Shown here in pieces: positions 2,922-24,837 of a stretch of DNA of 64,000 bases. Numbering within the stretch: position 1 is the first letter of the stretch; every line of letters starts with the position of its first letter. The stretch is from Klebsiella africana (lineage in GTDB: Bacteria > Pseudomonadota > Gammaproteobacteria > Enterobacterales > Enterobacteriaceae). The translations under genes were made by a program, and so were the position numbers. The stretch is from positions 1,116,001 to 1,180,000 of the forward strand of contig NZ_CP084874.1 of assembly GCF_020526085.1 (NCBI RefSeq). The letters are read 5' to 3'. The notes beneath the pieces were generated by a model. The model searched no databases and had not been told where the DNA came from. It saw only the letters and a list, made by a program, of their open reading frames with translations.

Positions 2922-4349
<1,428 letters not shown>

Positions 4350-4372: not shown

Positions 4373-5815
4373 TCAGGCGTGGGATGCCTGGGCCCGGGCC
4401 TGGCGCGCTCTGGCGTCGGCAGCGGCCTGTTCAACGGGAATGTCCTCAAAGCCGAGGATCAGCGTCAGGGCAAACGACAGCACCACCGACAGCGCCATCA
4501 CGCCAAATACCCAGACGATGGTCATTGGATTGGCCGGATCGAAAAACTGCACGCTGGTAAACAGCCCCGGCGCCGCCATCGAATGGCTGGCCAGTCCGGC
4601 AATGCCTGCCACCGCGCCGCAGATAAAGCCGCTGATTAAGCTGGCGATCAGCGGGCGCTTCAGGCGCACCGCCACGCCGTACAGCGCCGGTTCGGAAATC
4701 CCGGCCAGAATCGCCGATGCCGCGGCGGCCAGCGCCGTCTGGCGCAGCTCCGGGTTTTTGGTTTTCCACGCTACCGCCAGCGAAGACCCGCCTAGCGACA
4801 GGTTGGCGCCGATCTCCGATGGCATCACCATCCCCTCTTTGCCGGTTTCGGCGATGGTCTGAATGATGGTGGGCGTAAAGACGCGATGCATGCCGGTCAT
4901 CACCAACAGCGGCCACAGCCCGCCCATGATCGCCACCGACAGCCAGCCGAGATAGCTGTGGATCGTATACACCAGCGCGGAAATAGCGCTGCCGATCCAG
5001 ATGCCCAGCGGGCCAATCAGCAGGATCGCCAGCGGGGCGGCGATCAGCACGATCAGCATCGGCTTAAGGAAGTTTTTCGTCACCGCCGGGGTAATGCGAT
5101 CCACCCAGCGCTCGATATACGACAGGCACCAGGTCATCACCAGCGCCGGGATCACTGTATAGGTGTATTTCACCGCGGTAACCGGAATAAAGGCGAATTC
5201 AACGTGCTCACCCTGGGCGGCTTTGGCCATCAATTCGATAAACCCGGGATGCACCAGCACCCCGGCGATGGCGATGGCCAGCGACATATTGGTTTTGAAT
5301 TTCACCGCTGCGGAGGCGGCCACCATCAGCGGCAGGAAGAAAAATGCGCCATCGCCGATAAGCGCCAGCAGGGTCAGCGTCGGTGAACCTTTCGGCAATG
5401 CGCCGCTCATCTCGAGGATCATCGCCAGCAGTTTGACCATCGATCCGCCGATAATCGCCGGGATCAGCGGGGACATGGTGCCGATCAGCGCGTCGAGGAT
5501 CCCGGCGCCGATGCGTTTCAGGGTCAGCGGCGCTTTACCCTGCGGCTCAGCCGGGCGCAAGTCGCCAGGCAGCAGATTCACCACCTCGCGGTAGGCCTGG
5601 GAGACAGTATTGCCGATGATCACCTGGCACTGGTTATCGCTGCGCACAACGCCGAGCACCCCGGTCAGGCCTTTCAGGGTAGCGCTATCGACCTGTTCGT
5701 CGTCTTTGACCACGAAGCGCAGACGGGTCATGCAGTGGGTAACGGCGGCGACGTTGTCGACGCCGCCGATTGCCGCGACTATCTGTTGCGCCAGGGCTGC
5801 ATAATTTTTCGACAT
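4373..5815 (-). CDS. ascF: PTS aryl-beta-glucoside-specific EIIBC AscF
   Basis: Membrane permease of the phosphotransferase system that imports and phosphorylates aryl-beta-glucosides. The N-terminal EIIB domain carries the phospho-acceptor Cys28 in THCMTRLRF. From about residue 105 the protein is a hydrophobic EIIC domain with around ten membrane segments. There is no EIIA domain, so it must borrow one, probably Crr. At 480 residues it matches the E. coli protein. It is the first gene of ascFB, divergent from ascG. Confidence 0.93.
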   Translation of the reverse strand: MSKNYAALAQQIVAAIGGVDNVAAVTHCMTRLRFVVKDDEQVDSATLKGLTGVLGVVRSDNQCQVIIGNTVSQAYREVVNLLPGDLRPAEPQGKAPLTLKRIGAGILDALIGTMSPLIPAIIGGSMVKLLAMILEMSGALPKGSPTLTLLALIGDGAFFFLPLMVAASAAVKFKTNMSLAIAIAGVLVHPGFIELMAKAAQGEHVEFAFIPVTAVKYTYTVIPALVMTWCLSYIERWVDRITPAVTKNFLKPMLIVLIAAPLAILLIGPLGIWIGSAISALVYTIHSYLGWLSVAIMGGLWPLLVMTGMHRVFTPTIIQTIAETGKEGMVMPSEIGANLSLGGSSLAVAWKTKNPELRQTALAAAASAILAGISEPALYGVAVRLKRPLIASLISGFICGAVAGIAGLASHSMAAPGLFTSVQFFDPANPMTIVWVFGVMALSVVLSFALTLILGFEDIPVEQAAADARARQARAQASHA

Positions 5816-5879
5816 CGGATTTTATCCTGTTTATCAATAGGGTACTGATCTGCTACCGCCCGGATCGCCGGGCGATACC

Positions 5880-5905
5880 ATGTTTATATAGGAAACCGGT
5901 TCCAC
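5880..5905 (-). promoter_or_regulatory. ascFB promoter region with candidate AscG operator
   Basis: A GAAACCGGTTCC motif (5892-5903) matches the core ACCGGT symmetry of the AscG/GalR operator (TGAAACCGGTTTCA in E. coli, from memory). On the minus strand it is followed at once by TATATAAA, a plausible -10, so repressor bound here would occlude the ascFB promoter. Confidence 0.6.
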
Positions 5906-5963
5906 AAAATCATGGTGAGTTTCATTTAATTGCACAAGAAATAAAAAAACAGGATCTAAATTT

Positions 5964-5979
5964 TGTGATTTTGATCGCG
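5964..5979. promoter_or_regulatory. Candidate CRP site in ascF-ascG gap
   Basis: The 16-bp sequence TGTGATTTTGATCGCG keeps the strong TGTGA half and a partial second half of the CRP consensus. Catabolite control of beta-glucoside genes is expected. The distance to the presumed ascFB start (about 95-100 bp) is long, so it may serve either divergent gene. Confidence 0.4.
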
Positions 5980-6080
5980 AAGCGTCGCCGTACGCCGGAT
6001 CGCGGTGATAACAGGGGAGGGCTGTAAAAGCGAGAAACGTGCAGTACACTGCCTGCAACGTTTGCAACAGGAAGAATCAC

Positions 6081-7094
6081 ATGGCAACGATGCTGGAGGT
6101 CGCAAAGCGCGCGGGCGTATCGAAGGCGACCGTTTCGCGGGTGCTGTCGGGCAACGGCTATGTTAGCCAGGAGACCAAAGACCGGGTGTTTAAGGCGGTG
6201 GCGGAGAGCGGCTACCGGCCCAATCTGCTGGCGCGCAATCTGGCGACCAAAACCACGCAAACCCTCGGTCTGGTGGTGACCAATACCCTGTACCACGGCG
6301 TCTATTTTAGCGAGCTGCTGTATCACGTGGCGCGGATGACGGAGGACAAAGGACGACAGCTGATCCTGGCCGACGGCAAGCACAGCGCGCAAGAGGAGCG
6401 GGAGGCGATCCAGTATCTGCTGGATCTGCGCTGCGATGCGATCATCATCTACCCGCGCTTTCTTACCGTCGATGAGATGGACGAGATCGTTGAGAACCAC
6501 TCGCAGCCGATTATGGTGCTCAATCGCCGCCTGCGCCGCCACGCCAGCCACTGCGTCTGGTCCGATCAAAAAGCCTCGGCGATGCGGGTGGTGGAGCGGC
6601 TGATTGCGCTTGGCCATCACGATATCGCCTTTATTACCGGCTCTCTTGATTCGCCCACCGGCGTCGAACGCCTTGCCGGCTACAAAGACGCGCTGGCTGG
6701 CCACGGCATCGCCCTGAACGAGGCGCTTATCGCCGAGGGGCGCTGGACGCCGGAAACCGGCGCTGCGGCGGTGGAGAGTCTGCGTCAGCGCGGGGTGACC
6801 TACAGCGCACTGGTGGCGAGCAATGACGATATGGCCATCGGGGCGATGAAGCAGCTTCACCAGCTGGGCGTTAAGGTGCCGGAGCAGGTTTCGGTGGTGG
6901 GGTTTGACGATATTGCTCTCGCGCCGTATATGGTGCCGTCGCTCGCCAGCGTCCGGGTGCCAGTGACGGAGATGATTAAAGAGAGCATCAATCGCCTGAT
7001 ATTTATGCTGGATGGCGGGGAGTTCAACTTTCAGCAGAGCTTCCCCGGGGCGTTGATTGAACGCGAGTCGCTGGTGGCGGGTCCCTGCGCCTGA
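6081..7094 (+). CDS. ascG: LacI-family repressor AscG
   Basis: Transcriptional repressor of ascFB. The N-terminal helix-turn-helix (MLEVAKRAGVSKATVSRVL, from residue 4) is the LacI/GalR signature, followed by a periplasmic-binding-protein-like sugar domain. I chose the ATG at 6081 (AGGA upstream, 337 aa) rather than the in-frame ATG at 6039, because the family begins M-x-T-M-L-E-V-A-K. It is divergent from ascF, with the candidate operator between them. Confidence 0.92.
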   Translation: MATMLEVAKRAGVSKATVSRVLSGNGYVSQETKDRVFKAVAESGYRPNLLARNLATKTTQTLGLVVTNTLYHGVYFSELLYHVARMTEDKGRQLILADGKHSAQEEREAIQYLLDLRCDAIIIYPRFLTVDEMDEIVENHSQPIMVLNRRLRRHASHCVWSDQKASAMRVVERLIALGHHDIAFITGSLDSPTGVERLAGYKDALAGHGIALNEALIAEGRWTPETGAAAVESLRQRGVTYSALVASNDDMAIGAMKQLHQLGVKVPEQVSVVGFDDIALAPYMVPSLASVRVPVTEMIKESINRLIFMLDGGEFNFQQSFPGALIERESLVAGPCA

Positions 7095-7102
7095 CGTCGT
7101 CA

Positions 7103-7132
7103 GCTGTCATCGTCATTCCTGACGATGACAGC
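7103..7132 (+). terminator. Perfect 13-bp hairpin between ascG and hydN
   Basis: The arms gctgtcatcgtca and tgacgatgacagc pair perfectly around a 4-base loop. No T tract follows, so it may be a transcript-end stabilising hairpin of ascG or a protein-binding palindrome upstream of the hydN promoter rather than a classical terminator. Confidence 0.55.
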
Positions 7133-7175
7133 AAAGCGCGACTATAATAGTCATTTAAATCAACATATTAAAAAC

Positions 7176-7192
7176 TTGGAACGTATTATGCA
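7176..7192 (+). promoter_or_regulatory. Sigma-54 promoter for hydN-hypF
   Basis: The GG at 7178-7179 and the GC at 7190-7191 are exactly ten bases apart in the context TTGG-N10-GC, which fits a -24/-12 RpoN promoter. hydN-hypF of E. coli is a formate-regulon operon driven by RpoN and FhlA, so the fit with context is strong. No clear FhlA activating site was recognised. Confidence 0.75.
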
Positions 7193-7230
7193 TACTCCGG
7201 CGCGTAACCTTCTTACTGCTGGAGAAATGG

Positions 7231-7758
7231 ATGAACCGTTTCATTATCGCCGATGCGAGCAAATGTATCGGCTGTCGCACTTGCGAAGTGGCCTGCGTGG
7301 TATCCCATCAGGAACATCAGGACTGCGCCTCCCTGACGCCTAACACCTTTCAGCCGCGTATTCACGTGATCAAAGGGGTCAATGTCTCGACGGCAACCGC
7401 CTGCCGTCAGTGTGAAGACGCCCCCTGCGCCAACGTCTGCCCGAACGGCGCCATCAGCCGCGATAAAGGCTTTGTTCATGTGATGCAGGAGCGCTGCATC
7501 GGCTGCAAAACCTGCGTCGTCGCCTGCCCGTACGGGGCGATGGAGGTGGTGGTGCGGCCGGTGATCCGCCATAGCGGCGCCGGACTGAACGTCGTCGCGG
7601 AAAAAGCCGAAGCCAACAAGTGCGATCTCTGCTTCCACCGCGAGAGCGGCCCGGCCTGCATGGAAGTCTGCCCAACGCACGCCCTGGTGTGCGTTGACCG
7701 CAACAAGCTGGAGCAGATGAATATCGAGAAACGTCGCCGTACAGCGCTGGCCTGGTAA
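7231..7758 (+). CDS. hydN: Electron transport protein HydN (4x [4Fe-4S])
   Basis: Polyferredoxin linked to formate dehydrogenase H activity and hydrogenase maturation. The 175-residue protein has four cysteine clusters of the CxxCxxC type, the first at Cys12/15/18/22 and others near residues 54-70, 80-100 and 130-150. It is cytoplasmic and has no signal peptide. It is followed 8 bp later by hypF, and a sigma-54 promoter lies about 40 bp upstream of its start. Context and length agree with E. coli HydN. Confidence 0.93.
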
Positions 7759-7766
7759 GTCGTGGC

Positions 7767-10001
7767 ATGAACGGGGTGCAAATCCGCATTCGCGGTAAAG
7801 TGCAGGGGGTCGGTTTCCGCCCCTTTGTCTGGCAGCTGGCCCAGGCGCAGAGCCGCTGCGGCGATGTCTGTAATGACGGTGACGGCGTACTGGTGCGGTT
7901 GGCCGGGGGCGACGATGGGTTTATCACCGCCCTGGCTGACCACTGCCCGCCGCTGGCGCGGATCGACAGTACCGCCTGCACCCCCTATCGCTGGGCGGCC
8001 ACGCCGCAGGATTTCACCATTCGCGCGAGCGGGACGGGACGGATGCGGACTCAGATCGTGCCCGATGCCGCGACCTGTCCGGCGTGCCTTGCGGAGATGA
8101 ATGATCCCCGGGCGCGCCGTTATCGCTACCCCTTTATCAACTGCACCCACTGCGGGCCGCGGTTGACTATTATTCGCGCCATGCCTTACGACCGGCCTTT
8201 CACCGCAATGGCGCCGTTCCCGCTCTGTTCCCCTTGTGAGGCGGAATTCCGCGATCCTGCCGATCGCCGTTTTCATGCCCAGCCGGTGGCCTGTCCAGAC
8301 TGCGGGCCGCGCCTGCAATGGCGGACAGAGGGGGAAACGCTGGACGGCGAGGCGGCGCTGCAGGCGGCTATCGCCCGGCTGGCGGCGGGGGACATCGTGG
8401 CGATAAAAGGCATCGGCGGCTTTCATTTGGCCTGCGATGCCGGTAACCCCGCTGCCGTTGCCGCGCTGCGGGCGCGAAAACACCGCCCGGCAAAACCGCT
8501 GGCGGTAATGCTGCCGACGGCAACGGGGTTACCCGCCGCCGCCGCCGCGCTGATGGGCTCCCCGGCGGCGCCCATCGTACTGATTGCAAAAGCGCAGGTC
8601 TCCGGCCTGTGTGACGAGATTGCGCCAGGACTTGCGGAAGTAGGGGTGATGCTGCCGTCTAATCCGCTGCAGCATTTGCTTCTGCAGGGTCTGGCGCGCC
8701 CCATCGTAATGACCTCCGGCAACCTTAGCGGCCGTCCGCCAGCGTTAAGTAACGCTCAGGCGCTCAACGACTTAGCCGACATTGCCGACGGCTTTCTCTT
8801 GCATAATCGCGATATCGTGCAGCGGATGGATGATTCGCTGGTGCGGTCGAGCGGTGAAATGCTGCGCCGCGCCCGGGGCTATGTCCCGGATGCGCTGCCG
8901 CTACCGCCGGGGCTACGAGACATCCCGCCGCTGCTGGCTCTCGGCGCGGATATGAAAAATACTTTCTGCCTGGCGCGCGGCAGCGAAGCGGTGCTGAGCC
9001 AGCACTTTGGCGATCTTGGCGAGGAAGGCGTTGAACAGCAGTGGCGCTGCGCCCTGCAGCTGATGCAAAGCATTTACGCGTTTGTGCCGCAGCGGGTGGT
9101 GGTTGATGCCCATCCCGGCTATCGCTCAACGCAGTGGGCGGCCTCCCTGCCGCTGCCGGTGGAGACGGTGCTGCATCACCATGCTCATGCCGCGGCGTGC
9201 CTGGCCGAGCACCGCTGGCCACTTGATGGCGACGACGTTATCGCCCTGACTCTCGATGGTATTGGCATGGGCGAAAACGGTGCGCTGTGGGGAGGGGAGT
9301 GCCTACGGGTCAACTATCGCGAATGCGAACATCTGGGCGGGCTGCCGGCCGTCGCGCTGCCGGGGGGCGACCTGGCGGCGCGCCAGCCGTGGCGAAATCT
9401 GCTGGCCCACTGTCTGGCCTTTGTCCATGACTGGCAGGATTATCCGCAGACCGCCCCCCTGCGCCAGCGCAACTGGCCGCTGCTGGCGCAGGCCATCGAA
9501 CGCGGGATTAATGCGCCGCGCGCCTCATCCTGCGGACGGCTGTTTGATGCCGTTGCCTGTGCGCTGGATTGTGCGCCGGAGAGCCTGAGCTATGAAGGCG
9601 AAGCGGCCTGTCGGCTGGAAGCGCTGGCCGCCAGCTGCCCCGGCGTCAGCCACCCGGTTACGCTGCCGTGGCGCGACGACGCGCTGGACATGGCGATCTT
9701 CTGGCGACAATGGCTGAACTGGCAGGCGACCCCGGCGCAGAAAGCCTGGGCATTCCATGACGCCCTGGCCTGTGGGCTGGCGGCAATGGCCCGCGACCGC
9801 GCTACCGCCCGCGGCATCGACACGGTGGTTTGCAGCGGTGGGGTGCTGCATAACCGCCTGCTGGCGGCGCGATTGACCTTTTATCTGGCGGATTTTACTC
9901 TGCTGTTTGCGCAGCAGTTGCCGGCCGGCGACGGCGCAATCGCCTATGGTCAGGCGGTGATCGCCGCCGCCCGCGGGCAGGCTCAAGGAACACAATCATG
10001 A
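7767..10001 (+). CDS. hypF: Carbamoyltransferase HypF, [NiFe] hydrogenase maturation
   Basis: Builds the cyanide ligands of the [NiFe] centre by transferring carbamoyl from carbamoyl phosphate to HypE. Domains in order: acylphosphatase ([11 protein letters not shown] near residue 10), two zinc fingers (CxxC pairs from about Cys104 to 180), a YrdC-like nucleotide-binding domain, and a Kae1-like domain with the HHHAH motif at 470-474. The 744-residue length is normal. Its stop overlaps the next gene, a nickel transporter, by four bases. Confidence 0.95.
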
Positions 10002-21745: not shown

Positions 21746-22161
21746 CTGACAGATTCCGAGCCTCCCCGGATAGCGGCGCGTAGCGCCTTATCCGGGCTAC
21801 GGTCTGTTATCCGGTTGGTAGCCCCGGTAAGCGCAGCGCGACCGGGGGAGAGTTCAATGACAGCTTGTCGCCTATTGGCAACACTGCGGCTACGTTACTG
21901 ACAGATTCCGAGCCTCCCCGGATAGCGGCGTAGCGCCTTATCCGGGCTACGGTCTGTTATCCGGTTGGTAGCCCCGGTAAGCGCAGCGCGACCGGGGGAG
22001 AGTTCAATGACAGCAATGACAGCTTGTCGCCTATTGGCAACACTGCGGCTACGTTACGCGTCGTCATCCGCACGTTGGCGGCGGAGTTCGCCAGCGCTTT
22101 ATCCGGCTACGGTCTGGTATCCGGTTGGTAGCCCCGGTAAGCGCAGCGCGACCGGGGGATG
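21746..22161. repeat. Tandem BIME block, two ~152-160 bp units plus a partial third
   Basis: Unit 1 starts at 21746 and unit 2 at 21898, and they are almost identical over their length. Unit 2 lacks two bases early and carries a six-base duplication near its end. A third, diverged copy covers about 22091-22161. Each unit contains two REP palindromes (ccggat..atccgg and gccccggtaagcgcagcgcgaccgggg-like arms). The block separates mltB from the metal ABC operon. Confidence 0.85.
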
Positions 22162-22250
22162 ACGCCGGGGAGGCCGCGCTTATCCTCCTGTTTTTTCCCG
22201 TCTCCAGGCCTCTTGTTGACCTTTGTTACATTACCGCTGACTGACGCTGA

Positions 22251-22292
22251 TTTACATTCTTTCTTCGCTTCGTTATTGTTATGTTATAACAT
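22251..22292 (+). promoter_or_regulatory. Promoter and candidate Zur box of the metal ABC operon
   Basis: TTTACA (22251-22256) and TATTGT (22274-22279), 17 bp apart, form a plausible sigma-70 promoter. ATGTTATAACAT at 22281-22292 is a perfect 12-bp palindrome at the expected transcription start and matches the core of the enterobacterial Zur box. It therefore supports zinc repression of the genes that follow. Confidence 0.65.
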
Positions 22293-22309
22293 TAAATTGA
22301 GGCGAAAAT

Positions 22310-22417
22310 ATGTTCACATCGGTTTTTATGGCATCCGGCGCGACGCGCGCGGCCATCGCAGGCGTGCTGCTGGTGGCGCTATGGCTGGCGACCTGGTGGG
22401 CGGTGACGCTGCCATGA
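22310..22417 (+). CDS. Small membrane peptide (35 aa) leading the metal ABC operon
   Basis: An open frame of 35 codons starts at ATG 22310 with GAGG seven bases upstream and ends in TGA overlapping the ATG of the ABC ATPase (ATGA). The peptide starts MFTSVFMASGATRAAIAG and continues with a hydrophobic stretch rich in Leu, Ala and Trp ending WAVTLP, long enough for one membrane span. It could be a small accessory subunit of the importer or a leader whose translation controls the ATPase. I recognise no family. It lies between the candidate Zur box and the transporter genes, which argues for a real gene. Confidence 0.55.
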   Translation: MFTSVFMASGATRAAIAGVLLVALWLATWWAVTLP

Positions 22418-23091
22418 TTGAACTGGAGCAACTGGTATCCGGCTATGACGGGGTAGCGATTACCCCTCCACTGAGCGGGATGATATGCCCCGGCAGCCTG
22501 ACGGCAATCGTTGGCCTCAATGGCTGCGGAAAATCGACCCTGCTGAAAACCCTCGCCGGGTTTCTTCCGCCGGTCAGTGGCTGCCTGCGCTGGCAGGGGA
22601 AACGGCCGGTGATTGGCTGGCTGGCGCAGCGCCATGCCCTCGAGTCGCAGTTTCCTCTCAACGTGCAGGATGTGGTAAGCCAGGGCGCATGGCCCGGCGT
22701 GTCGCTGCTGCGCGGTCTGGGGGGCGACACCCGGCGACGCCTCGGCGCGGTGCTGGAGCGGGTCGGGCTGGCGGGCCTGGCGAAAACGCCGATCGAAGCG
22801 CTCTCCGGCGGCCAGTTTCAGCGCATGCTATTTGCCCGGGTGATGGTGCAGCAGGCGCCGCTGGTGATGCTCGACGAGCCTTTCACCGGTATTGACGAAG
22901 CGACAAGCCGCGAACTAATGGATTTGATCCTCGAGATGCACCGGCAGGGACAGACCATCCTGGCGGTGCTGCATGATAATCAGCGGGTAGCCGACTTTTT
23001 CCCCGAGACGCTGCTGCTGACTCCCCAGCGCGCCTGCTGGGGCGCTACCCGGGCGGTGCTTCCGGCTTTCACTCATGCGAGGTCGGCATGA
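22414..23091 (+). CDS. Metal (zinc/manganese) ABC transporter ATP-binding protein
   Basis: ATPase of a cluster A-I metal importer, 225 aa from ATG 22414. Visible motifs are Walker A GLNGCGKST (about 33-41), signature LSGGQ (about 130) and Walker B MLDEPF (about 152). A much earlier in-frame start exists at 22159, but it would add 85 unrelated residues. The gene order ATPase-permease-binding protein agrees with ZniCBA, a second zinc importer reported for K. pneumoniae as I recall, in which case this is zniC; this was not verified. Confidence 0.88.
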   Translation: MIELEQLVSGYDGVAITPPLSGMICPGSLTAIVGLNGCGKSTLLKTLAGFLPPVSGCLRWQGKRPVIGWLAQRHALESQFPLNVQDVVSQGAWPGVSLLRGLGGDTRRRLGAVLERVGLAGLAKTPIEALSGGQFQRMLFARVMVQQAPLVMLDEPFTGIDEATSRELMDLILEMHRQGQTILAVLHDNQRVADFFPETLLLTPQRACWGATRAVLPAFTHARSA

Positions 23092-23951
23092 TCTGGCACA
23101 CCTTCTTTCAGCCTTTCATTGAATTCGGCTTTATGCGCCGGGCCCTCGTGGTGTGTCTGGCGCTGTCGCTGAGCACCACCATGCTGGGCGTCTTACTGCT
23201 GCTGCGGCGCATGAGTCTGATGGGCGATGCGCTGTCGCACGCCATTCTCCCCGGGGTGGCGGTGGGGTATTTGCTGAACGGCATGTCGCTGCTGGCCATG
23301 ACCCTGGGCGGCTTCATCGCCGGCATCATGGTGGCGCTGGTGGCCGGGTGGGTGAGCCGGCGGACACCGTTAAAAGAGGACGCCAGCTTTGCTGGATTTT
23401 ATCTGGGCTCGCTGGCCCTGGGTGTCACCCTGGTGTCGCTGCGCGGCTCCAGCGTTGACCTCCTGCATCTGCTGTTTGGCTCCATTCTGGCGGTCGATCG
23501 CGACGCGGCGCTGTTTGTCAGCGGCGTCGCCAGCCTGACGCTGCTGTGCCTCGCGCTGTGCTACCGCGGTCTGGTCAGCGAGGCGTTCGACAGTGCCTGG
23601 CTGCAGGTGAACCACCCCCGCCTTCCCGCGCTGCTGCATGGGCTTTTTCTGGCGCTGCTGGTGCTTAATCTGGTGGCCGGGTTTCAGGTGCTCGGCACGC
23701 TGATGGCGGTGGGGGTGATGATGCTTCCGGCGGTCGCCGCGCGCTGCTGGGCGCGCACGCTGCCGGGCATTCTGCTGCTGGCGGCGGGAATGGGTGCGCT
23801 CTGCGCCTGGCTGGGATTAAGCCTCTCCTGGGCGATCAGTCTTCCCGCCGGGCCCGCTATTGTCCTGACTGCCAGCGCACTGTTTTTTGTTTCACTTTTT
23901 TTTGGCACGCGCAGCCGGCTGCTGGTCGGCTGGCGCACATTGATGGGGTAA
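23088..23951 (+). CDS. Metal ABC transporter permease (ZnuB/MntB family)
   Basis: Integral inner-membrane subunit of 287 residues with about eight hydrophobic segments. The ABC-3 permease features LMGDALSHAILPGVA (about 44-58) and the late VLGTLMAVGVMMLPAV stretch (about 203-218) are typical of zinc/manganese importers. It overlaps the ATPase gene by four bases. It would be zniB if the operon is the second zinc importer of K. pneumoniae. Confidence 0.9.
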   Translation: MIWHTFFQPFIEFGFMRRALVVCLALSLSTTMLGVLLLLRRMSLMGDALSHAILPGVAVGYLLNGMSLLAMTLGGFIAGIMVALVAGWVSRRTPLKEDASFAGFYLGSLALGVTLVSLRGSSVDLLHLLFGSILAVDRDAALFVSGVASLTLLCLALCYRGLVSEAFDSAWLQVNHPRLPALLHGLFLALLVLNLVAGFQVLGTLMAVGVMMLPAVAARCWARTLPGILLLAAGMGALCAWLGLSLSWAISLPAGPAIVLTASALFFVSLFFGTRSRLLVGWRTLMG

Positions 23952-23955
23952 GGAA

Positions 23956-24837
23956 ATGATGAAACGTAGTGCAATAGTAGTCGCGCTGGCCCTCGGCCTG
24001 ATGGCGCAGGGGGCCATGGCGAAAACGCTGAACGTGGTCAGCAGCTTTTCGGTGCTGGGCGATATGGTGCAGCAGGTCGGCGGGGAGCATGTCCATGTGG
24101 ATACCCTGGTCGGCCCGGACGGCGATCCGCACACCTTCGAGCCCTCACCGAAGGATAGCGCGCTGCTCAGCAAGGCCGACGTGGTGGTAGTCAACGGCCT
24201 GGGACTGGAAGGGTGGCTGGATCGCCTGATTAAGGCCTCCGGTTTTAAGGGCGAGCTGGTGGTGGCATCGACAGGCGTCATGACCCATACCCTTGATGAG
24301 GATGGTAAAACGGTGACCGATCCCCACGCCTGGAACAGCGCGGCGAACGGCGCGTTGTATGCGCAGAATATCCTCGATGGTCTGGTGAAAGCCGACCCGC
24401 AAGATAAAGCGGCGTTGACCAACAGCGGCAAGCGCTACATCGACCAACTGACGAACATCGATGGCTGGGCAAAAACGCAGTTCAGCGCCATTCCGCTGGC
24501 AAAGCGCAAGGTCCTGACCAGCCATGACGCCTTCGGCTATTTTGGCCGGGCTTATCACGTGACCTTCCTCGCGCCACAGGGGCTCTCTTCAGAGAGCGAG
24601 GCCAGCGCGGCGCAGGTGGCGGCGCTGATTAAGCAAATCAAAGCGGATGGCGTCCATACCTGGTTTATGGAGAACCAGCTTGATCCGCGGTTGGTGAAGC
24701 AGATTGCCAGCGCCACCGGCGCGCAGCCCGGCGGCGAACTCTATCCGGAAGCGCTATCTAAGCCGGGCGGCGTGGCCGATAGCTACGTCAAAATGATGCG
24801 TCATAACGTTGAGCTTATCGCTAACAGCATGAAGTAA
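23956..24837 (+). CDS. Metal ABC transporter substrate-binding protein
   Basis: Periplasmic cluster A-I metal-binding protein of 293 residues with a signal peptide (MMKRSAIVVALALGL, cleavage after AMA). Candidate ligands lie in GDPHTFEPSP (about His57), DPHAWNS (about His118), SHDAFGYF (about His185) and the late acidic residue region. Unlike E. coli ZnuA it has no long histidine-rich loop, and its charged loop (about 100-116) is short, resembling AztC-type proteins. Zinc is the likely metal given the Zur-like box upstream; manganese cannot be excluded. It may be ZniA. Confidence 0.88.
   Translation: MMKRSAIVVALALGLMAQGAMAKTLNVVSSFSVLGDMVQQVGGEHVHVDTLVGPDGDPHTFEPSPKDSALLSKADVVVVNGLGLEGWLDRLIKASGFKGELVVASTGVMTHTLDEDGKTVTDPHAWNSAANGALYAQNILDGLVKADPQDKAALTNSGKRYIDQLTNIDGWAKTQFSAIPLAKRKVLTSHDAFGYFGRAYHVTFLAPQGLSSESEASAAQVAALIKQIKADGVHTWFMENQLDPRLVKQIASATGAQPGGELYPEALSKPGGVADSYVKMMRHNVELIANSMK

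Follow-up and report, generated by a model that had tools for sequence, protein, structure and literature searches.

A small gene heads the zinc-starvation operon of Klebsiella africana: it encodes a protein of 35 residues that has been overlooked or labelled hypothetical, and it is kept beside pumps of the same kind in many bacterial families. We found it in the window (the whole stretch of 64,000 nucleotides that was analysed) directly upstream of the genes for a zinc ABC importer. The 35-aa ORF is a genuine gene and its product is under purifying selection at the protein level. The protein is probably a missing part or a regulator of the zinc pump, and we put the probability that it serves Zni/Mnt-type importers as a small accessory subunit at roughly 0.6. 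The features of the locus are listed in Table 1.

Table 1. Features of the zni operon and of the region before it (positions in the window)
Feature	Position	Strand	Basis
-35-like hexamer TTTACA (putative)	22251..22256	+	read from sequence
-10-like hexamer TATTGT (putative), 17 bp spacer, overlapped in part by the Zur box	22274..22279	+	read from sequence
Predicted Zur-type operator TGTTATGTTATAACA, 15-mer	22277..22291	+	published consensus and conservation across loci
Shine-Dalgarno-like GAGG, 7 nt 5' of the peptide ATG	22299..22302	+	read from sequence
Gene for a 35-aa single-span membrane protein (predicted), without accepted name	22310..22417	+	conservation, omega, AlphaFold2 helix
zniC, ABC ATPase	22414..23091	+	PF00005; start and length equal in the K. 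aerogenes record
zniB, ABC-3 permease	23088..23951	+	PF00950
zniA, periplasmic zinc-binding protein (ZnuA-type)	23956..24837	+	PF01297; ZniCBA in PMC10797113

The three large genes (22414-24837) are ZniCBA, the known zinc importer of Klebsiella (PMC10797113). The C-B-A order between mltB and pncC that marks a Zni-type operon is present in the window, where the gene order is mltB, zni, pncC and recA, as it also is in the K. aerogenes record. The accessible part of PMC10797113 describes the same operon (mltB, zniC, zniB, zniA, pncC) in K. pneumoniae AJ218, with three genes and with higher expression in zinc-limited medium. The nearest relative locus is that of K. pneumoniae ATCC 13883, with a zniC identity of 97% in an ATPase search of one-genome-per-species contigs; a megablast-level search of complete E. 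coli genomes gave no match to the zni region. By NCBIfam, the nearest named relatives of the three proteins belong to the AztABCD system (Paracoccus type), all below cutoff: ZniC matches AztA best (189 bits, cutoff 220), ZniB scores 243.4 bits against AztB (cutoff 280) and ZniA 268.1 bits against AztC (cutoff 350). By these equivalog cutoffs the operon is not an AztABCD system. A gene for the AztD metallochaperone does not adjoin the operon in the window, where the pncC and recA frames come directly after zniA.

Several other observations were made at these loci. The intergenic region between mltB and the zni genes (window 21778-22174) consists largely of repeats: three direct copies of 87 bp, two of them identical and one 74%, and further repeats of 44 bp and 33 bp. 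K. pneumoniae ATCC 13883 (L206) has a second importer of the aztABCD type (5705-8279 and 8303-9568) behind a Zur-like box; its ATPase frame is interrupted and there is no peptide match beside the ATPase. Enterobacterial-type zni loci also occur in L048 and L104, two contigs that bear the titles Chryseobacterium sp. 18061 and Martelella alba, which may reflect misnaming or mixed assemblies.

The first-pass annotation, made from the letters of this DNA, had described a small frame with its own ribosome site, with a stop that overlaps the ATPase start, hidden by longer frames, and all three points hold. The frame, which translates to MFTSVFMASGATRAAIAGVLLVALWLATWWAVTLP, is preceded by GAGG (Table 1), it shares ATGA with zniC (ATPase ATG at 22414-22416, peptide TGA at 22415-22417), and a longer ATPase frame starting at 22159 overlies it. 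The ATPase search found 163 relatives, of which the best 80 were kept; in all 81 loci (these 80 and the window) a small ORF ends in the same ATGA overlap. Stop codons or frameshifts in related genomes had been named as what would speak against the gene: none of the 81 rows has a stop within the last 32 codons of the peptide frame, against 63 and nine rows in the other two forward frames. The comparison of synonymous and nonsynonymous changes that had been proposed points the same way. Under a codon model fitted to 80 rows (all but L089) along the ATPase tree, omega for the peptide is 0.257, and fixing omega at 1 with kappa at 2 costs 168 log-likelihood units (lnL -4798.2 vs -4630.0 for the free model, in which kappa is 2.01); the ATPase has an omega of 0.089, so the peptide is under looser selection than its neighbor. 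Median pairwise dN/dS (209 pairs) is 0.24 in the peptide frame; the other two forward frames give 0.96 and 2.42. A spurious ORF is ruled out by the presence in 81 out of 81 loci together with this omega.

The start of the peptide is less conserved than its end. A simple scoring scheme applied to the 81 loci chose TTG as start codon in five of them and a downstream ATG (-86) in two, and found no Shine-Dalgarno-like match in three. Among 29 sequences picked from the loci, two residues never vary (Arg13 and Trp30) and three hardly do (Ala31, Leu34 and Pro35). In the locus omitted from the codon model (L089, Enterobacter sp. EA-1) the zniC frame is broken near its start, at about position 3000, and the peptide frame is whole.

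A Zur-like box formed by a perfect palindrome had also been proposed. The palindrome is indeed perfect (ATGTTATAACAT at 22281-22292, zero mismatches) and a Zur-type motif is conserved, but the register needs correction: judged by its sequence, the predicted operator is better read as the 15-mer at 22277-22291, the 12-mer being a shifted part of it. The 15-mer TGTTATGTTATAACA differs by one base from the gamma-proteobacterial core TGTTATANTATAACA, taken from the accessible part of PMC2706843, which gives GAAATGTTATANTATAACATTTC as the gamma-proteobacterial consensus and AATGTTATANTATAACATT as the Y. pestis form. Scoring 13 bases (TGTTATNNTATAACA) over the stretch from 260 to 60 nt upstream of the ATPase start in all 81 loci gave a best site with at most one mismatch in 77 of them and with two mismatches in the other four. 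Across five genomes of the genus we also inspected 22 loci where a site is exact or has one mismatch. Among the genes behind these sites (named from their translations) are zni, znuA/znuC, ZinT-like, ykgM-like ribosomal protein and QueD-like genes, and several of the sites adjoin genes without an evident link to zinc. The site in the window thus has both a match to the core and counterparts before known targets, as a gamma-proteobacterial Zur operator should, and it is best called a predicted site. Only exact and 1-mismatch sites were used, because a scan allowing two mismatches did not stand out clearly from its reversed control (e.g. 43 and 38 vs 37 and 36 in genome G001). As the putative box overlaps the -10-like hexamer, repression by occlusion would be a natural way for it to act. 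One genome of the genus (L123) has an exact 15-bp Zur-type site before a QueD/PTPS-like gene.

The tie between the peptide and the importer, which had been proposed from this one locus, extends far beyond the enterobacteria. More distant loci were collected by permease searches at the level of order (46 out of 295 genomes, E<=1e-45), class (41 out of 369, E<=1e-25) and phylum (98 out of 398, E<=1e-45), without four of the matches from the order and the weakest of those from the class. A blind profile, for which the 81 enterobacterial-type loci were the sole training set, was applied to 9877 stop-to-stop frames from 146 loci (L139-L286 minus L206 and L268, some of them closely related to the training loci). 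Its top 80 matches (E<0.1) all lie directly upstream of the ATPase gene on the same strand, and their ends fall within a span from 51 nt upstream to 7 nt downstream of the estimated ATPase start; the first match away from the ATPase has an E-value of 0.18. No fusion of the peptide to ATPase or permease is seen among the E<0.1 matches in the 146 loci. After iteration of the profile, which made no use of position, the peptide was found (E<1) in 105 out of 130 loci of the importer subfamily and in none of 16 distant metal-ABC loci (L176-L191), with two frames away from the ATPase also under E 1 in the final round (0.37 and 0.98). The members form a family of small proteins with a shared description: directly upstream of the ATPase gene, same strand, one helix, an Arg at its start and a Trp near the end. 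A copy was not detectable in 25 of the 130 loci (the Azt clade, a family-f186 clade, a reduced genome of 1 Mb and others), so the peptide is either dispensable or unrecognisable in some lineages. Three loci (L283-L285) have profile-negative hydrophobic frames of 31, 42 and 70 aa ending 8-12 nt before the estimated ATPase start, and these are perhaps diverged members.

We also read 17 hand-chosen regions of named records in a plasmid collection, a collection in which two records have the size of chromosomes (CP125156.1, Klebsiella, 5.4 Mb; NZ_CP119142.1, Neisseria, 2.2 Mb). The peptide is present in nine of the 17 regions: K. aerogenes, E. hormaechei, Azospirillum, Methylobacterium, Neorhizobium, Thioclava, Bartonella sp. 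HY761, Skermanella and N. gonorrhoeae. Seven have a permease labelled aztB and no peptide, and the remaining one (Roseomonas) had no ATPase match. The AztABCD system therefore differs from the Zni type in seven out of seven aztB-labelled records. This exclusion is limited to records so labelled, because in the Skermanella record the ATPase is labelled aztA, the permease is not labelled aztB and the peptide is present. We considered whether absence of the peptide is coupled to AztD: AztD occurs within the stretch in four of the aztB-labelled records, but it was not found in the fetched stretch of the other three (Phyllobacterium, Mesorhizobium and Devosia), nor among the matches listed for two peptide-less f186 loci (L288 and L289), so we do not take AztD as a general substitute. 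In the N. gonorrhoeae record the homologue is directly upstream of the ATPase gene of an unannotated locus that, by its sequence, appears to be znuCBA/mntABC. This system is given as three genes only in the accessible part of the review PMC9280163, where the terms 'small protein' and 'hypothetical' are absent.

On a FastTree tree of the ATPases (171 rows, including 10 of the 80 enterobacterial-type loci) the pattern of presence and absence of the peptide can be explained by six changes among 157 rows, of which 125 have it and 32 lack it; with presence shuffled the mean is 40.7 changes (none of 500 shuffles was as low as six). The azt rows form one supported clade within the peptide-bearing group, where the deeper branches are weak. 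Given the few changes and the position of the azt clade, presence of the peptide looks ancestral, followed by a few losses.

That the peptide spans the membrane once, as first proposed, agrees with an AlphaFold2 model of the window peptide, which has a single helix at residues 10-33 (mean pLDDT 91, pTM 0.54). In a set of 186 sequences, made up of 81 peptides and the final 60 residues of 105 frames, 288 Lys/Arg residues lie on the N side of the helix and 35 on the C side; the excess is on the N side in 159 sequences and on the C side in 12, with 15 ties. Because of this weighting the N-terminus is predicted to be cytosolic, and the peptide is thus predicted to be one transmembrane helix with an N-in orientation.

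An accessory subunit is the reading suggested by linkage in distant families, clade-wise loss, protein-level selection and a single N-in helix. What was computed is that the frame is coding, that selection acts on the protein, that linkage to the importer subfamily is tight, that a single helix is predicted and that positive charge lies on the N side; membrane insertion, binding to ZniB or ZniC, an effect on transport and control by Zur we infer. The 35-aa ORF would be the first gene of a Zur-controlled zni operon, its translation often coupled to that of the ATPase by the stop/start overlap, and its product a single-pass inner-membrane protein (N-in, C-out). The conserved Arg...Leu-Trp...Trp face could pack against the permease and so stabilise or tune the ZniB-ZniC complex, like KdpF or AcrZ on other transporters. 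KdpF and CydX are small membrane proteins of KdpFABC and cytochrome bd. With AcrZ (of AcrB) they are very small membrane proteins that modulate a membrane complex, and the analogy is to how the peptide may work: their partners are not ABC importers, and no sequence kinship is claimed. AcrZ and KdpF are so described in the accessible part of PMC7267776. The K. pneumoniae mutants in the accessible part of PMC10797113 removed binding proteins only, and they are therefore no test of the peptide.

We rank the accessory subunit first, then a regulator acting through its tail, then a membrane role outside the operon, and last a pure leader. The main rival, which we think unlikely, is that the peptide is not a structural subunit but a zinc-responsive regulator, which slows or gates the importer while its cytosolic N-terminus reports zinc status or recruits another factor. 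This would resemble the trans-inhibition of MetNI or ModBC. In 21 of the 105 homologues there is a His-rich stretch (five or more His among the 45 residues that precede the helix; a narrower cut gave 18 out of 105), and His totals over the 105 are 274 on the N side and eight on the C side, with no locus having three or more on the C side; these counts come from stop-to-stop frames, so some residues may precede the true start. Some other loci have dense His-rich ATPase C-termini, with at least 10 His in the last 50 residues (L197, L203, L210, L220, L237, L240-L242, L245, L247, L249, L252 and L261), but the two kinds of His stretch are not significantly exclusive (1 out of 21 vs 9 out of 90 peptide-bearing loci; Fisher p 0.68), so strict exclusivity is not supported. 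The stretch changes state eight times on the ATPase tree, and the named rows retrieved with one His-rich query were nearly all Bradyrhizobium (best 120 of 1284). As 84 of the 105 homologues and the window peptide are without such a stretch, zinc sensing is not the shared function. A wider proposal, which we regard as speculative and doubtful, is that cluster A-I importers of the Zni/Mnt type have an ancestral fourth subunit, a single-helix protein that gates the permease from inside the membrane and whose forms with a His-rich cytosolic tail let intracellular zinc shut the importer directly.

It is still less probable that the peptide is a zinc-starvation membrane protein acting elsewhere (in permease insertion, on ZnuB or in membrane stress) and merely sharing the operon. 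Small membrane proteins do often have partners outside their own operon, but no E<0.1 match of the profile lies away from an ATPase start in the 146 loci, and its only matches (E<=1) among the 22 Zur-box loci are the five zni loci. At the scale of whole genomes, the lone window peptide used as query reached E<=1 in 32 out of 60 genomes; 20 of these are of the same genus, the nearest genome among them, and gave 2.3e-7 or better. Outside the genus this query did poorly, with only two others reaching 0.003.

The first-pass annotation had offered a translational leader as an alternative, and of this the coupling is plausible and widespread (beyond the enterobacterial-type loci used for training, 70 of the 105 homologues allow a 4-nt overlap, 47 with ATG, 19 with GTG and four with TTG), but an ORF that only opens the zniC start, its product being irrelevant, is a very improbable account, because amino acids, and not merely an open frame, are conserved across families, the 4-nt overlap is missing in 35 of the 105 (eight of these share one base) and the mRNA is not unusually structured (fold z 0.60), and a leader or riboswitch was rejected as a sufficient explanation on this z and the lack of any Rfam match at gathering score.

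The accessory-subunit reading concerns a protein with little annotation. The window peptide matches no Pfam or NCBIfam model at cutoff, and the matches of six divergent homologues to these databases are all sub-cutoff. A profile search scored 7994 candidates and retained 1568 protein clusters at E<=0.01; among the best 120 of these the named clusters are almost all called hypothetical protein, an exception being a K. quasipneumoniae entry named as ATP-binding protein. For example, the peptide is the uncharacterised protein VDZ62730.1 in K. aerogenes NCTC10006 and the hypothetical protein WP_202684557.1 in Skermanella. We know of no described counterpart in the cluster A-I metal importers. A description of the peptide was not found in the literature searched (subscription papers and preprints lay outside its scope), and the accessible part of PMC10797113 does not describe it; the words 'small protein', 'hypothetical' and 'open reading frame' are absent from the main text of that paper.

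The accessible parts of PMC10797113, PMC12183173 and PMC9280163 present the zinc/manganese ABC importers of this group as systems of three genes. If the peptide belongs to one large subfamily of them, experiments limited to the three known genes may have left a part out. If our reading is true, a single start codon would offer a simple genetic handle on importer assembly or shut-off, and a widely distributed set of hypothetical proteins would be explained.
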